In this document: positions 4,566-26,044 of the stretch, piece after piece
Numbering within the stretch: the stretch's first letter is position 1
Layout of the letters: each line of letters begins with the position of its first letter
Assembly: GCA_029210815.1 (NCBI GenBank)
Contig: JARGGB010000031.1
Coordinates: forward strand, 1 to 34,558
Direction: 5' to 3'
From: Candidatus Brevefilum sp.
Lineage (GTDB): Bacteria > Chloroflexota > Anaerolineae > Anaerolineales > Anaerolineaceae
Length of the DNA: 34,558 bases
Program-made: the position numbers and the translations under genes
The notes under the pieces: model-generated
Told to the model about the DNA's origin: nothing
Database searches by the model: none
What the model saw: the letters and a program-made list of their open reading frames with translations, nothing else

Positions 4566-5777
4566 TCAGTCCATCCATTCGACGATGGTGGTTTCACCCT
4601 GTCCAACGCCAACGCATAAAGATGCCATACCGTAAAAGGGGCGAGGTGCGGTCTCAGCGCGACGGCGCATCTCGTGCACCAATGTGGTCATGATCCTTGC
4701 ACCGGAACATCCCAGGGGATGACCAAGCGCGACCGCCCCACCGTTGACATTGGTGATCTCGTGCGACAGACCTAAAGCATCCATGACAGCCAGCGTTTGC
4801 ACAGCAAATGCTTCGTTAACTTCAACCAGTTGAATATCTTCAATCGAAAGCCCTGCACGCGCCAGGGCTTTTTCTGTTGCGGGGATTGGGCCCAAGCCCA
4901 TCACACGCGGCGGGACGCCAGCGGATGCCATGCTCACAATGCGCACAAGGGGTTTTAAGCCCAGTGCTTTCGCCTTGTCTTCGCTCATTACCAATAGAGC
5001 GGCAGCCCCATCATTCAAGCCGGAGCTGTTCCCGGCTGTGACCGACCCGTCACTTTTGAAGGCTGGGCGAAGTCGCTGGAGGGCTTCAAATGAAGTATCC
5101 CGCCGTGGGCGTTCGTCCGTGTCGAAGACCAGGGGGTCACCTTTCCGCTGTGGAATTGGTACGGGCAGGATCTCATCAGCGAATTTCCCTGAATCAATGG
5201 CAGCGATTGCTCGCTGGTGACTGGCTAAGGCAAAGCGGTCCTGGGCTTCACGGCTGGTGCCGGTCATCTCGGCAATATTTTCTGCTGTTACGCCCAGGGG
5301 TTCGGTGCTGTATTTTTCTGTCATGCGTGGGTTGACAAAACGCCAGCCCAGGGTGGTGTCGTAGGCGGTTAGATTTCCAACAGGGCTGGTCGGTTTGGGC
5401 ATGGCATAGGGCGCCCGGCTCATGCTTTCGACGCCCCCAGCGATGAAGACCTCACCGTCGCCTGCTCTGATGGAACGGGCGGCAGCGTTAATGGCGGTTA
5501 GTCCAGATGCGCACAGGCGGTTGAAGGTCACCGCCGGGATGGATACCGGCAAGCCTGCCAGCAGAACCGCCATTCGGGCGACATCGCGGTTATCCTCGCC
5601 AGCCTGGTTAGCGCATCCCAAATAGACCTCTTCAATCAGGTCGGGGTCAAGAGCATTCCGATCGACAATCGCGCTAAGGACCAATGCTGCCAGGTCATCC
5701 GGGCGAATGGAGGCAAGTGCACCGCCCAGGTTTCCTATAGGTGTGCGCAGGGCATCGACAATTACAGCTTCGGGCAT
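4566..5777 (-). CDS. Acetyl-CoA C-acyltransferase (thiolase, FadA/PaaJ-like)
   Basis: A 403-aa thiolase catalysing reversible thiolytic cleavage or condensation of 3-oxoacyl-CoA. All catalytic residues are visible: nucleophile Cys89 in NRLCASG, the VNEAF motif with Asn321, His353 in [10 protein letters not shown], and the second acid/base Cys388 in SLCVGVGQG (usually CIGGGQG; this variant is mild). Family features such as [11 protein letters not shown] at 114-124 are present. The length and the opening (DALRTPIG) fit the beta-ketoadipyl-CoA/acetyl-CoA acyltransferase group; the exact substrate is not determinable. The start at 5777 has an AGGAGAT site 7 nt upstream. The gene appears, by eye, more GC-rich than its neighbours. 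It converges on htpG and is the only thiolase in the window with a complete active site, so it may supply acetoacetyl-CoA. Confidence 0.93.
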
Positions 5778-19354: not shown

Positions 19355-19511
19355 AGCGCGCTAATTTTACCCCGAAATGATCTCCAATGTCGCAGCGCGC
19401 TGTGTTATCGGTGAAATTAAGCCTCAGGGGCTCAGTTAATGTTATAACCGGGAATTTGATAGCTTTTGGGAGGGTGAATCCGGTATATATTAACAGGTCT
19501 GTTTCTTTAGC

Positions 19512-19541
19512 TTGTTCGATTTCGGGATTTGAGATTAAAAT
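19512..19541 (+). promoter_or_regulatory. Candidate promoter of the mevalonate-entry cluster
   Basis: TTGTTC (19512-19517), an 18-bp spacer and TAAAAT (19536-19541) stand 22 bp before the HMG-CoA reductase start. The match to sigma-70 consensus is moderate. Confidence 0.4.
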
Positions 19542-19563
19542 AGACCAAAAGGATTGTGTTTTT

Positions 19564-20850
19564 ATGTCAACAACACCAAAAAATAAAGAAAAATTTTATC
19601 AGATGACCCGGGAAGAACGTTTGGATCGTTTGATTGATGAAACTGGTATTTCGGTATACGATGCGAAAATCCTGAGCGGAGAAGCGGGACTGTCTGCGCA
19701 GGATGCTAATCACATGATCGAGAATGTCGTTGGGATCTTCAGCCTGCCCCTGGGGATTGCGCGGCATTTTAAGGTTAACGGGCGAGATGTGTCCGTACCA
19801 ATGGCTGTGGAAGAACCTTCGATCGTTGCTGGTGCCTCTTTTATGGCTAAACTCACTGCCAGGACTGGTGGATTTTTTGCCCACACAACATCACCGGAAA
19901 TGATCGGCCAGCTGCAAATCATCAACCTGGATGACCCGGCATCCACACGTTTGAAACTTTTAGCCGAAAAAGATAAGCTCCTGGAAGAGGTTAGCCAGGT
20001 TGACCCCCTTTTGACCTCCCTGGGCGGAGGTCCGCGAGATTTTGAAGTTCGAATAATTCCAGATTCACCGCGAGGTCCGTTCCTGGTTGCGCATTTGATC
20101 TATGATGTGCGTGATGCAATGGGCGCTAATGCCGTCAACACCGCTGTTGAGCGGTTGGCTTCCAAAGTGGAAAGCATTACTGGGGGCAAGGTGCTTTTGA
20201 GAATTCTATCCAACCTGGCAGATCGTCGATTAGCACGAGCCTGGGTGACCATCCGGACGGATGACCTGGCTTTTGATGACTTCAGCGGCCTTGAAGTGCG
20301 GGATGGCATCCTGGATGCCTGGGCTTTTGCGGCTGCTGACCCCTACCGGGCGGCAACACATAATAAGGGGATTATGAACGGGATTGACCCAATTGTGATT
20401 GCGACGGGTAATGATTGGCGCGCTATTGAAGCTGGGGCGCATGCCTATGCTGCAAAAGATGGGCGCTATACCAGCCTTTCCACCTGGGGGACGAATTCGG
20501 AAGGTGACCTGGTGGGGACTTTGGAAATGCCCATGGCGGTTGGTACTGTGGGCGGTGCCACACGGGTGCATCCGGCTGCACAAGCCTGTTTGCGTTTGAT
20601 GGGTGTGAAATCAGCTCGGGAACTGGCTGAGGTAATGGTGTCGGTAGGTCTGGCACAAAATTTGGCAGCTTTGCGCGCGCTGGCGACGGAGGGCATTCAA
20701 AAGGGGCATATGAGTCTGCATGCCAGGCAGGTGGCTGTCGCTGCCGGGGCAAAGGACGACCAAATTGATAAATTAGCCGAGCAGCTTGTTGCGGATAAGA
20801 TCATTCGGATTGACCATGCGCAGTCTATTTTAGAAGATTGGAGTAAATAG
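19564..20850 (+). CDS. mvaA: Hydroxymethylglutaryl-CoA reductase, class II type
   Basis: A 428-aa enzyme that interconverts HMG-CoA and mevalonate, the same length as Pseudomonas mevalonii MvaA. The catalytic set is intact: Glu83 in VEEPSIVAG, Lys268 in [10 protein letters not shown], Asp284 in [13 protein letters not shown] and His382 in GHMSLHARQ. The CoA/substrate motif [17 protein letters not shown] is at about 321-337. The ATG at 19564 is chosen because AAAAGGA lies 10 nt upstream and similarity begins there; an in-frame extension to 19387 is non-conserved. It is the first gene of a three-gene cluster and its stop is followed directly by the HMG-CoA synthase start. Biosynthetic direction is inferred from that neighbour. 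Confidence 0.95.
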
Positions 20851-20851
20851 C

Positions 20852-21934
20852 ATGATGGAAGACCATAAGCATGTGAAGGACATTGTCAATAAACCATCTC
20901 GCCATGTCGGGATTATTGGATATGGCGCTTATATCCCACGCTACCGACTGCCGAGTACGGAGGTATCTCGAATTTGGACCGGGCAGGCAACGCCAGGTCC
21001 TGTCAAAGAGAAGGCTGTGGCAGGACTGGATGAGGATGTGATCACCATGTCGATTGAGGCAGCACGCAATGCTGTTGCCCGCGCTGGCATCGATCCGCAA
21101 TTACTGCGGGCTGTGTGGGTCGGCTCAGAATCACACCCATACGCGGTCAAGCCCTCTGGCACAATTGTTGCTGAGGCAATCGGTGCGCCAGAACATATCC
21201 AGGCTGGCGACTGGGAATTTGCCTGTAAAGCCGGCACTGAAGCTTTTGTTGCTGCCATGGCTTTGGTCGGCTCCGACATGGCAGATTACGCCCTGGCAAT
21301 AGGGATGGATACAGCCCAGGCTAAACCCGGTGATGCCCTGGAATACACTGCTGCTTCTGGCGGGGCAGCTTTTATCATTGGTCCAGCGGAGGAAGCCCTG
21401 GCGAAGGTCGATGCCCATTATTCCTTTGTGACGGATATGCCCGATTTCTGGCGGCGCGCGCATCAAAAATACCCGGAACATGGTCAGCGCTTTACGGGAG
21501 AGCCGGCTTACTTCAATCACATCTATTCGGCAGCCAGCCGCTTGATGGAAAGTGAAGGTCTGACGGCTGAAGATTTCAAATATGCTGTTTTTCATCAACC
21601 CAATGAAAAATTCCCCAGGCGTGTGGCAAAACAGCTCGGGTTTAAACCGGAGCAAATTGAGGATGGCCTTCTCTCACCCGTGATTGGCAATACCTATGCT
21701 GGTGCTTCAATGGTCGGTTTGACGGCGATACTGGATATTGCCGCACCAGGAGACCGAATTTTGATCACCTCCTACGGGTCTGGGGCTGGATCTGATGCCT
21801 TTATCATTACGGCACAGGAAGCGCTGCTCGAAAGGCGGGGGGCTGCCCTCAGCACCCAGGATTATATAGCCCGACGGACGGAGATCGATTACGCCACCTA
21901 CACTCGCTTCCGCAATAAGATTGCGATGAAATGA
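20852..21934 (+). CDS. Hydroxymethylglutaryl-CoA synthase, archaeal-type
   Basis: A 360-aa thiolase-superfamily enzyme that condenses acetyl-CoA with acetoacetyl-CoA to HMG-CoA. The catalytic triad appears as Glu93 ([12 protein letters not shown]), Cys125 ([11 protein letters not shown]) and His248 ([10 protein letters not shown]). Length and the opening [15 protein letters not shown] fit the archaeal type, rather than the longer eukaryotic or the Gram-positive MvaS form. In archaea this enzyme works as a channelled complex with a thiolase and a DUF35 protein. The start is 2 bp after the reductase stop, with GGAG about 9 nt upstream. The end overlaps the earliest possible thiolase start by 4 bp (ATGA), implying coupled translation. 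Confidence 0.93.
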
Positions 21935-21942
21935 GGGCGCGC

Positions 21943-23109
21943 ATGAAAGATGGACATTCCGAGGTGATTCTTGCAGGTGTTGGTCAAACCCCCGTGGGTG
22001 AGTTCTGGGACCTTTCATTAAGGACCCTGGCTGCCAGGGCGATTCTGGCTGCAATTAAGGACTCGGGGAATATTAAACCCCAGGTTATGTATATTGGGAA
22101 TATGCTGGCACCTTCTGCCTCACAGCAGGCGAATTTAGGCGCGCTTTTACCGGATAATGTGGGTTTAACCGGTTTAGAAGGTGTAACGGTTGAAGCAGCG
22201 GATGCCTCAGGCGGGGCAGCGCTGCGGGCAGCTTATCTGGCTGTTCGTTCAGGTGCAGTCGAATCCGCGCTGGCGGTGGGTGTTGAAAAATACACCGATG
22301 TGATCGGACCGGAATCCGAAGCCATGCTGTCACAGATGCTGGATGCAGATTTTGAAGCAGCGCAGGGATTAACGCCCCTCAGCCTGGCAGGATTGTTGTT
22401 TCACCGCTATCTTGTGGAATACCAGGCTGAACATGAAGCTTTTGCGGGATTTCCTGAAGTGGCGCATGCCAACGGTGCGACGAACCCCAATGCCATGTTC
22501 CAGCGTGCGATGCGAGATGGCGCTTACGAACGAGCGGCAACAGCAGCGGAAATCCTCAATTTGTTTGACGTTGCACCTTATGCGGACGGCGCTGCTGCTG
22601 TGCTGTTAACATGCGAAGACGCGCTGCCTGAAGCATGGGATAAGCCGCGTGTTCGCCTGATTGGCTCAAGTTCCGTGGTCGATACAATTTCGATTCATGA
22701 TCGGCATGCGCCCCTGGTATGGGATGCAGCTCGTCTCTCGATTGAGCGTGCGTGCAGAACAGCAGGGATCATGCCAAAGGATGTGGATTTCTTCGAGTAT
22801 CACGATGCCACCTCTTTACACGCAGTGTTATCTTTAGAAGCGGCAGGGTTCGCATCCCAGGGTCAGGGCTGGATGCTGGCAAAACCGGAAGTGATTGGCT
22901 TAAACGGACAGATCCCTGTTGCAACCTTTGGCGGCTTAAAGGCGCGTGGGCATCCCATCGGTGCCACCGGTGTTTACCAGGCTGTGGAAGCGACATTGCA
23001 ACTGCGCGGCGAGGCTGGTCCCAACCAGGTGCCGGGGGCAAAGTTGGGGTTGATCCAGAACCTGGGTGGTATGGCTGCCACGGCTGTGACACATGTTTTA
23101 GCAGTGTAA
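21943..23109 (+). CDS. Thiolase-fold protein of the mevalonate cluster, nucleophile Cys replaced by Asp
   Basis: A 388-aa SCP-x/archaeal-type thiolase homologue. The C-terminal catalytic motifs are present: His in FFEYHDATSL (the HDCF-like position) and GHPIGATG. The position of the nucleophilic Cys reads VEAADASGG, with Asp87 encoded by GAT at 22201-22203, where family members have VEAACASGG. Ordinary Claisen chemistry through an acyl-Cys intermediate should therefore not be possible. The gene follows HMG-CoA synthase directly, as in archaeal complexes. I prefer the ATG at 21943 because GAGGG sits 5 nt upstream; the ATG at 21931 overlaps the synthase stop and has no site. No DUF35 gene follows. 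It may be a structural partner, a non-thiolase acyl-CoA enzyme, or decayed. Confidence 0.85.
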   Translation: MKDGHSEVILAGVGQTPVGEFWDLSLRTLAARAILAAIKDSGNIKPQVMYIGNMLAPSASQQANLGALLPDNVGLTGLEGVTVEAADASGGAALRAAYLAVRSGAVESALAVGVEKYTDVIGPESEAMLSQMLDADFEAAQGLTPLSLAGLLFHRYLVEYQAEHEAFAGFPEVAHANGATNPNAMFQRAMRDGAYERAATAAEILNLFDVAPYADGAAAVLLTCEDALPEAWDKPRVRLIGSSSVVDTISIHDRHAPLVWDAARLSIERACRTAGIMPKDVDFFEYHDATSLHAVLSLEAAGFASQGQGWMLAKPEVIGLNGQIPVATFGGLKARGHPIGATGVYQAVEATLQLRGEAGPNQVPGAKLGLIQNLGGMAATAVTHVLAV

Positions 23110-24422: not shown

Positions 24423-25061
24423 TCATTCCTTCACAAACCAGTGCCGGAGGAACTTATAAAACGCCTGGATACGCACCATCAGCAGCAAGCTCACAATAAC
24501 CAGCGCGATCAAAGGCGCAGCATAATCCCCCTGGAAGTTAAATAAATCACCTTTAATCGACAGCAGGTAATGGACCACCACCAGCACCCCGGCAACATAT
24601 ACCAGGCGATGAAGCCATACCCAGGTTTTCCCCATCTTGCGCTGCAAGGATTTAAATGAGGTTGCAGCCAGAACCAGCAATATCACCATTGCGATCGCCC
24701 CGAAAATGATGAAGGGTTTGGTTCTGATTTCATTCCAGATCAGCGGCAGGTTGAGCTGGTAATCCCAGACCGCAAAGGCAGCAAAGTGCAGAAAAGCATA
24801 CAGCGCGGCAAATAAGCCAAGGGGTTTTCGCAGGATACCAACTGCTGGGAGCTTGAAGATTTTGTTGATCGGCGTGCAGGAAAGGGATAGTATCAGGAAG
24901 ATCATCCCCAGGTTGCCCGTGCGCTGCATCACCGTTTGTACCGGGTTGAAGCCCAGGTTCCCTTGCAGAGCAGACCATCCCAGTAAGAGCAATGGAATAA
25001 CCCCGCCGATTAAGACGACCAGATTCAGCCAATTTTTATCCCTGTTCTTTTTGTTATCCAT
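24423..25061 (-). CDS. msrQ: MsrQ-like heme-binding membrane subunit
   Basis: A 212-aa membrane protein of the ferric-reductase-like/YedZ (MsrQ) family that passes electrons from the quinone pool or flavin to MsrP outside the membrane. About six hydrophobic helices are visible. The heme-liganding histidines of the family correspond to His92 (FLHFAAF), His151 (WLHRLVY) and His164 (VVHYLLS). It starts 26 bp after the msrP stop on the same strand and lacks a strong ribosome site, so it is probably coupled. Length agrees with E. coli MsrQ (about 211 aa). Confidence 0.92.
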   Translation of the reverse strand: MDNKKNRDKNWLNLVVLIGGVIPLLLLGWSALQGNLGFNPVQTVMQRTGNLGMIFLILSLSCTPINKIFKLPAVGILRKPLGLFAALYAFLHFAAFAVWDYQLNLPLIWNEIRTKPFIIFGAIAMVILLVLAATSFKSLQRKMGKTWVWLHRLVYVAGVLVVVHYLLSIKGDLFNFQGDYAAPLIALVIVSLLLMVRIQAFYKFLRHWFVKE

Positions 25062-25087
25062 AAATCTACTTTCTGTTCAACGCAAGC

Positions 25088-26044
25088 TTAAAAATTCTCT
25101 TCCAGGTCCATACCTTCATACAGCGGCATGACTTCCTCGGCATAGCCGTTCATGAATAAGGTTGGGATACGGCCAGCATCACCAATCCTGCGTTCCGTGG
25201 CTTGGGACCAGCGTGGGTGATCGACATCCGGGTTGACATTGGCATAAAACCCGTATTCATTTGGCGCGATGGTGTTCCAAAGCGTGGGCGGCTGGTCGCG
25301 GACCAGGGAAATGCGCACGATGGATTTGATGCTCTTGAATCCATATTTCCAGGGGACAACCAATCGAATTGGCGCGCCATTTTGCGGCGGGAGCGGTTCA
25401 CCGTATAAACCGGTTGCCAAAATTGTCAGGTCATGCATGGCTTCATCCAGCCGAAGTCCTTCTAAATAAGGGAAGGGGAACAGGTCTGAATTGGCATTGT
25501 CCATCTGTCCAGGAACGAGCGCGGATTCAAATAAGACATATTTTGCTTCACTGGTTGGCCTGACATCCTCAAGCAGTTTGTGCAAGGGGAACCCCATCCA
25601 GGGTATGACCATCGACCATCCCTCCACACAGCGCATGCGGTAGATGCGTTCTTCTTGCTCGTAAGCTTCTAAAATCTCTTCCATGGTGAAGATACGGGGG
25701 TTCTCAACCAGACCTGTGACTGCCACAGACCAGGGACTGGTCACAAAATCCTGGGCTTTTTCATCAACAGTTTCTTTGTCCGTGGTGAACTCATAAAAAT
25801 TGCAGTAGCCGGTGATTGCATCGTATGATGTCAGCAGGTTATTCATGTTGTCCGTGCGGAAATCTGTTGGCAAACCCGTAGGCAGTTCGTCAGGGGGTGT
25901 CAACCCGGGCGCACAGCTTGCCAGGAGTGCCCCCATCCCGATAAAGCCCATACTCTTTAGAAATTGGCGTCGGGATTGATAGATGTGCCTTGGGGTGATC
26001 TCTTCCGGTCTAATGGGTACAGAACGGATTTGTTTGCGATCCAT
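25088..26044 (-). CDS. msrP: MsrP-like protein-methionine-sulfoxide reductase, Tat-exported
   Basis: A 318-aa molybdopterin oxidoreductase of the sulfite-oxidase fold that repairs methionine sulfoxide in exported proteins. A twin-arginine signal, SRRQFLK at residues 24-30, precedes a short hydrophobic stretch ending LLASC (Cys44), which also looks like a lipobox. The Moco-ligating cysteine is Cys139 in MRCVEGWSM. Family motifs NGAPIRLVVPWKYGFKSIKS and GYCNFYEF are present. The start at 26044 has GAGG 7 nt upstream. It sits between a rhodanese lipoprotein gene and msrQ in one operon. Membrane anchoring through Cys44 is an inference. Confidence 0.93.
   Translation of the reverse strand: MDRKQIRSVPIRPEEITPRHIYQSRRQFLKSMGFIGMGALLASCAPGLTPPDELPTGLPTDFRTDNMNNLLTSYDAITGYCNFYEFTTDKETVDEKAQDFVTSPWSVAVTGLVENPRIFTMEEILEAYEQEERIYRMRCVEGWSMVIPWMGFPLHKLLEDVRPTSEAKYVLFESALVPGQMDNANSDLFPFPYLEGLRLDEAMHDLTILATGLYGEPLPPQNGAPIRLVVPWKYGFKSIKSIVRISLVRDQPPTLWNTIAPNEYGFYANVNPDVDHPRWSQATERRIGDAGRIPTLFMNGYAEEVMPLYEGMDLEENF

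Follow-up and report, generated by a model that had tools for sequence, protein, structure and literature searches.

The window, by which we mean the whole stretch of DNA analysed here (34,558 nucleotides of contig JARGGB010000031.1 from Candidatus Brevefilum sp.), carries on its forward strand a cluster that runs from an HMG-CoA reductase through an HMG-CoA synthase to a thiolase-like gene whose catalytic Cys codon is replaced. The features used below are as follows.

19387..20850, forward strand: HMG-CoA reductase that opens the cluster (TIGR00532 model; start codon uncertain)
20852..21934, forward strand: HMG-CoA synthase, archaeal-type, with Glu93, Cys125 and His248 intact
21931..23109, forward strand: archaeal/SCP2-type thiolase without the Cys (pseudo-thiolase), 392 amino acids (open reading frame, profile matches and predicted structure)
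22201..22203, forward strand: GAT, Asp91, at the position of the thiolase nucleophile (Cys)
22801..22803, forward strand: CAC, His291 of the HDA motif
22951..22953, forward strand: CAT, His341 of the GHP motif (GHPIGATG), Asn or Phe in some copies of the same genus and probably a reversion
23059..23076, forward strand: NLGGMA, a degenerate catalytic loop (residues 377-382), where 62/67 Cys-type copies have NIGGSG
4566..5777, reverse strand: classical thiolase (above the TIGR01930 cut-off), unlinked to the operon and a candidate source of acetoacetyl-CoA

The stop codon of the HMG-CoA synthase overlaps the start of the thiolase in an ATGA at 21931-21934. The thiolase frame is open, as a preliminary description had stated, but spans 392 codons (21931-23106 plus stop) rather than 388, a length that fits a start at Met5. 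The synthase scored 502 bits against TIGR00748 (cut-off 353) and was likewise above the cut-off for PRK04262. The reductase was above the cut-off for TIGR00532, a 'degradative' model, despite the biosynthetic look of the operon. At 24423-26044 on the reverse strand lies an adjacent gene pair that we take to resemble MsrP/MsrQ (YedY/YedZ-type).

Codon 91 falls within VEAADASGG, and alignment with PDB 6esq, PDB 7yvy and a paralog in the same genome that retains the Cys and both His (C-H-H; contig G000:C9, 6462-7613) places Asp91 at the nucleophile, bearing out the central claim of the preliminary description. An operonic copy was seen in 13 of 16 genomes of the genus (the window's included), and all 13 have Asp, encoded by a mix of GAT and GAC (12 of the 13 copies); sequencing error is thereby ruled out. 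Recruitment of another Cys as nucleophile was also ruled out. The only cysteines of the window protein are residues 228 and 275, neither near the nucleophile elbow, and 207 of 210 Cys-less copies in the alignment have no Cys in residues 86-97, the other three having one at position 87.

Membership in the archaeal/SCP2-type thiolase family was clear from Pfam Thiolase_C_1 (PF22691), which the protein matched at 136 bits against a gathering score of 28. More specific models were less accommodating. The NCBIfam equivalog for archaeal acetyl-CoA acetyltransferase (NF053570, cut-off 600 bits) scored 282.7 bits for the window protein and 386.8 for the C-H-H paralog, both below the cut-off, and PRK06064 (cut-off 420 bits) accepted the paralog at 451 and rejected the window protein at 343. 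The best NCBIfam model, 'thiolase domain-containing protein', was also under its cut-off. Where a catalytically competent thiolase has the Cys, the HDA His, the GHP His and the NIGGSG loop, the protein has Asp91, His291, His341 and NLGGMA, respectively.

An AlphaFold model of the single chain was of high confidence (mean pLDDT 94, pTM 0.94). Its top PDB chain by VIA-align was 6et9_C (Z 60.6, rmsd 1.4 over 379 residues), the thiolase subunit of an archaeal HMG-CoA synthase complex, which outranked 7yvy (Z 57.9), the nearer sequence; a fold match of this kind is no proof of function. Foldseek placed 7yvy first by E-value, while its TM-scores favoured 6et9/6esq. Another archaeal thiolase-like structure, PDB 4yzo (Sulfolobus tokodaii ST0096), has Ser in the nucleophile column of the alignment and may be a further Cys-less thiolase.

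To place the window gene among its relatives we used two sets of loci, in which counts are of sequences and not of independent events; archaea lay outside the survey. In the window's GTDB family 147 genomes were searched and 118 loci with a near-full-length HMG-CoA synthase match were examined (100 from the synthase match list, 17 from the thiolase list, plus the window, partial synthase matches being left out). A thiolase was in reach in 116, the contig ending first in the other 2. The wider set comprised 60 of 400 genomes chosen by hand among those with near-full-length synthase matches, one of which (L284) had no thiolase in reach; it includes 20 class- and order-level loci (L278-L297 without L284, plus L317), 20 phylum-level loci and 19 loci of a neighbouring family of the order (f2).

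Linkage of the thiolase to the pathway was tight within the family. The HMG-CoA reductase was upstream in 116/116 loci and the synthase match ended at most 60 bases away in 110/116. A DUF35 gene followed within 1.5 kb in 66/116 family loci and in 20/20 phylum-level loci. None of the 13 operons of the window's genus contained DUF35, and the window's genome had one DUF35 match, on another contig (G000:C47). Linkage was looser in f2, with the synthase within 60 bases in 3/19 loci and DUF35 following in 7/19.

The catalytic Cys was absent from all 116 synthase-linked thiolases of the family, replaced by Glu in 47, Gly in 42, Asp in 22, Ser in 2, Gln in 2 and Asn in 1. It was also absent from 19/19 operonic thiolases in f2 and from 20/20 phylum-level loci, 19 of which lacked both His as well. 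Of the class- and order-level loci, 15/20 were C-H-H and 5/20 lacked the Cys. Isolates with Cys-less copies include Leptolinea tardivitalis (L204) and Longilinea arvoryzae (L211); the scan of named genomes used a pattern with [GED] at the Cys position and is biased to Cys-less copies, making its counts unusable as frequencies. Loss of the Cys is thus clade-wide, which answers the proposed check of conservation in a clade, but Asp itself is conserved only within the genus, and its being a feature of the whole clade was ruled out by the variation among Gly, Glu and Asp. Nor is the need for more than one base change between Cys and Asp an obstacle, since Gly, the commonest residue at this position (116/210 Cys-less copies), has codons (GGN) one base from those of both Cys (TGY) and Asp/Glu (GAN).

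The histidines fared little better. Both motifs noted in the preliminary description, HDA and GHPIGATG, are present in the window but are not stable among its relatives. Among the 115 family operonic copies that cover these positions, 19 retain His291 and 9 retain His341; the full C-H-H triad occurred in 0/116, and Asp together with both His in 7/116. Even within the genus, position 341 was His, Asn or Phe (codons CAT, CAC, AAC, AAT and TTC). These counts, together with parsimony at position 341, which gives Asn in the ancestor of the Cys-less clade, led us to reject the two histidines of the window as evidence of activity and leave the suggestion that the intact motifs reflect retained chemistry unsupported.

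With the three catalytic columns masked, 71/71 sampled Cys-less operonic copies formed one clade (SH-aLRT 97) that includes the sampled phylum-level loci and to which neither the Cys-type paralogs nor the intact operonic copies belong. Repeated independent losses of the Cys had been our first suspicion; the thiolase tree, giving one clade, set it aside. Parsimony reconstructed the clade's ancestor with Asp91, His291 and Asn341, and gave either His or Asn at 341 for the ancestor of the window's genus. Because the clade ancestor has Asn at 341, the GHP His of the window is probably a reversion rather than a remnant, as far as a quick tree with open forks can tell. The HMG-CoA synthase trees were poorly resolved, the root of the first having been deliberately set on the phylum-level rows, and needed 3 label changes, from which it follows that the history may differ from a single clean loss. 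All trees were quick ones save one synthase tree, that in which the synthase of an order-level genome, G373 (L286, G373:C89:50500-59000), was placed with weak support (84/70). In this genome the thiolase of the synthase operon is C-H-H and groups with the non-operonic paralogs, suggesting that an active-type thiolase displaced a dead copy in the operon; the genome showed no further thiolase match, whether archaeal-type or classical.

Loss of the active site was not accompanied by loss of constraint. When 210 copies without the Cys were compared with 17 intact copies from operons and 50 non-operonic copies of the Cys type, 19 positions conserved in the Cys types were lost in the Cys-less clade (91, 341, 377, 378, 381 and 382 among them) and 76 positions were conserved across all three groups. 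Several of the replacements are themselves conserved (Ala153, 83%; Ala215, 86%; Leu378, 89%), which argues against free drift. Only five positions were found to follow operon membership. dN/dS could be read in one pair, the window and its closest relative, L033, dS being saturated or nearly so in the other four pairs tried; the values were 0.043 (pseudo-thiolase), 0.037 (synthase) and 0.127 (reductase). The pseudo-thiolase gene is under strong purifying selection, in agreement with the earlier impression that it is not in random decay. The Glu, Cys and His of the synthase were intact in 178/178 loci.

If the operonic protein lacks thiolase activity, acetoacetyl-CoA would have to come from elsewhere. 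The preliminary description proposed the classical thiolase at 4566-5777, which may indeed be the source, but the C-H-H archaeal-type thiolase on contig C9, which lies beyond the sequence on which that description was based, may be as well. A match with at least 56% identity to this paralog was present in 126/147 family genomes (hand count, three of them partial), and 30/30 non-operonic paralog loci fetched were C-H-H, none beside a synthase. In 19/20 phylum-level genomes the Cys-less operonic copy was the only archaeal-type match, setting aside cross-matches to the synthase and to classical thiolases, and classical thiolases were present in 19/20. Classical thiolases were surveyed in 62 hand-picked genomes, the family members mostly chosen for lacking a close C-H-H paralog. 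Among those at least 90% complete, one was found in 37/39 with a Cys-less operonic copy versus 9/15 with an intact one (Fisher p 0.004, with genomes picked by hand, kinship uncorrected and G464 counted as positive on a match in two pieces). Two genomes with a Cys-less operonic copy were exceptions: G523 (L333, 92% complete) had no other thiolase match, archaeal-type or classical, and G105 (L154, 90% complete) had neither a classical thiolase nor a close C-H-H paralog. These reflect either assembly gaps or some other source of acetoacetyl-CoA. Conversely, G035 (L049, G035:C20:1000-20000; 99% complete) had no match for the synthase, DUF35 or the pseudo-thiolase and kept the C-H-H paralog, so that the paralog may act outside the mevalonate pathway.

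How a thiolase without its active site might be retained is suggested by the archaeal complex. In Methanothermococcus, according to PMC12329534 and PMC6996347, DUF35 holds thiolase and HMG-CoA synthase together and the two enzymes share a CoA site at their interface; the rationale given in PMC12329534 is that acetoacetyl-CoA passes between two active sites with a common CoA site. We think it likely that the window gene encodes an ancient pseudo-thiolase that serves as scaffold and shared CoA-site subunit in a complex of the 6ESQ type with HMG-CoA synthase and DUF35, acetoacetyl-CoA being made elsewhere. A structural scaffold for the synthase was among the roles first proposed, and it is the one that appears to fit best. 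The nucleophilic Cys of an ancestral archaeal-type acetoacetyl-CoA thiolase, once the working partner of HMG-CoA synthase, would have disappeared in the ancestor of the Cys-less clade across the sampled Chloroflexota, in the simplest case by a single event. The GHP His and the NIGGSG loop would have been lost subsequently, along with the HDA His in many lineages. The subunit would have been retained for docking DUF35 and the synthase and for forming part of the interface CoA site, as in 6ESQ, and acetoacetyl-CoA from a separate thiolase would enter the complex from solution. In favour of this reading are the missing catalytic residues of the family's operonic copies as opposed to the C-H-H paralogs, the single clade, the positions that follow catalysis, the low dN/dS, the intact residues of the synthase, the operon linkage, the VIA-align ranking, the genome G035, the frequency of classical thiolases and the PhlA precedent described below. 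Several observations stand against it, namely the lack of DUF35 in the operons of the genus, the loose linkage in f2, the genomes G523 and G105, the order of Foldseek E-values and the label changes in the synthase trees; the constancy of Asp in the genus and the conserved replacements at 153, 215 and 378 could also tell against it.

The strongest competitor, which we nonetheless regard as unlikely, is that the Cys-less thiolase was repurposed for another acyl-CoA reaction, a retro-aldol or lyase reaction as in Ltp2/Sal or a decarboxylation, in which different pocket residues would do the work. There are known aldolases of the thiolase fold that lack the Cys and have a DUF35 partner, and in CtSal the Cys position is occupied by Gly (PMC12329534). 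The model also resembles 9myr and 6ok1 in fold, and the conserved replacements at 153, 215 and 378 (83-89%) could point to a new activity. Against this, the catalytic Tyr in the YDCY motif of Sal finds no general equivalent in the family, where residue 291 is one of S, D, W, H, C, T, A, Q, Y and F and Tyr occurs in 1/115. Position 91 varies, Sal and Ltp2 rank lower in VIA-align (Z 47.5 and 46.6) than the thiolase of the HMG-CoA synthase complex, and the partner synthase keeps its catalytic residues. The preliminary idea of a different acyl-CoA reaction, if run through the Asp, is weakened, as relatives carry Gly, Glu or Asp at this position.

Thiolases are dimers, and pairs of a ketosynthase with a chain-length factor are known. 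By analogy, the Cys-less protein could pair with the C-H-H paralog and form the inactive half of the dimer, tethering an active thiolase to the synthase. The frequency of the paralog in the family favours such a pairing, but the phylum-level genomes in which the Cys-less copy is the only archaeal-type match do not, nor does the position of the paralog away from the synthase in the 30 fetched loci and its persistence without a synthase in G035. We judge this somewhat less probable again than a repurposed enzyme.

More doubtful still is that an acidic residue, Asp or Glu, stands in functionally for the Cys in the genus, as a nucleophile or base supporting residual thiolase or CoA-ester hydrolase activity. 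The invariance of Asp in the 13 genus copies despite synonymous saturation could indicate a role for Asp there, and a few family copies combine it with both His. The sister rows of the window in the thiolase tree, read at the three catalytic positions, are D-S-N, E-A-F and E-S-F, some genus members have Asn or Phe in place of His341, and the loop is NLGGMA. Given that Gly, Glu and Asp all occur at this position, a new catalytic role for Asp as such is unlikely. Least probable of all is a slowly decaying relic or a sequence artefact, to which the degenerate active site and the stop flagged inside the match in a few operonic copies (G017, G032, G036, G111 and G121) might lend some colour, but which is at odds with the low dN/dS, the open frames in the other listed relatives and the same residue in 13 genomes of the genus.

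Extending the preferred reading of a scaffold and CoA-site subunit beyond the window, we lean, with less assurance, towards the view that the HMG-CoA synthase complex of the mevalonate pathway has, in much of the Chloroflexota, a thiolase pseudoenzyme as an obligate subunit without catalysis of its own, the fused CoA-site architecture being uncoupled from the channelling of acetoacetyl-CoA, and that the slot of this subunit was refilled at least once by an active-type thiolase (G373). If this is correct, a dead thiolase kept within the gene set would mean that this subunit plays another important part, and channelling and scaffolding would be separable by experiment. Cys-less genes of this kind are likely annotated as thiolases, and models of the pathway would be misled. 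Judged by titles and abstracts, with most subscription papers and preprints outside coverage, no paper appears to report a thiolase pseudoenzyme beside HMG-CoA synthase.

Among the nearest known systems is the thiolase of Methanothermococcus thermolithotrophicus (PDB 6ESQ, 6ET9), which the window protein resembles in fold, in linkage to an archaeal-type HMG-CoA synthase and in the adjacent DUF35 of many family and all phylum-level loci; the window clade, known here from genes and a single-chain model, differs in having lost the catalytic Cys, the GHP His and the catalytic loop. The paralog on contig C9 is of the same family (48% identity) but keeps the Cys and both His and does not lie beside a synthase. 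The Ltp2/Sal steroid aldolases share a Cys-less thiolase fold and a DUF35 partner, whereas their catalytic Tyr motif (YDxY/YDHF) is not generally present here, the window having His291, and the linked gene here is HMG-CoA synthase. PhlACB (PDB 5M3K) offers a parallel for a three-part architecture with one subunit devoid of catalytic residues. There, according to PMC6392133, the HMG-CoA synthase-like PhlA has lost its Cys (Gly115) and its Glu and is apparently required for nothing but assembly, while the thiolase-like PhlC is active; in the window clade the arrangement would be the reverse, with an intact synthase beside a thiolase that has lost its catalytic residues.
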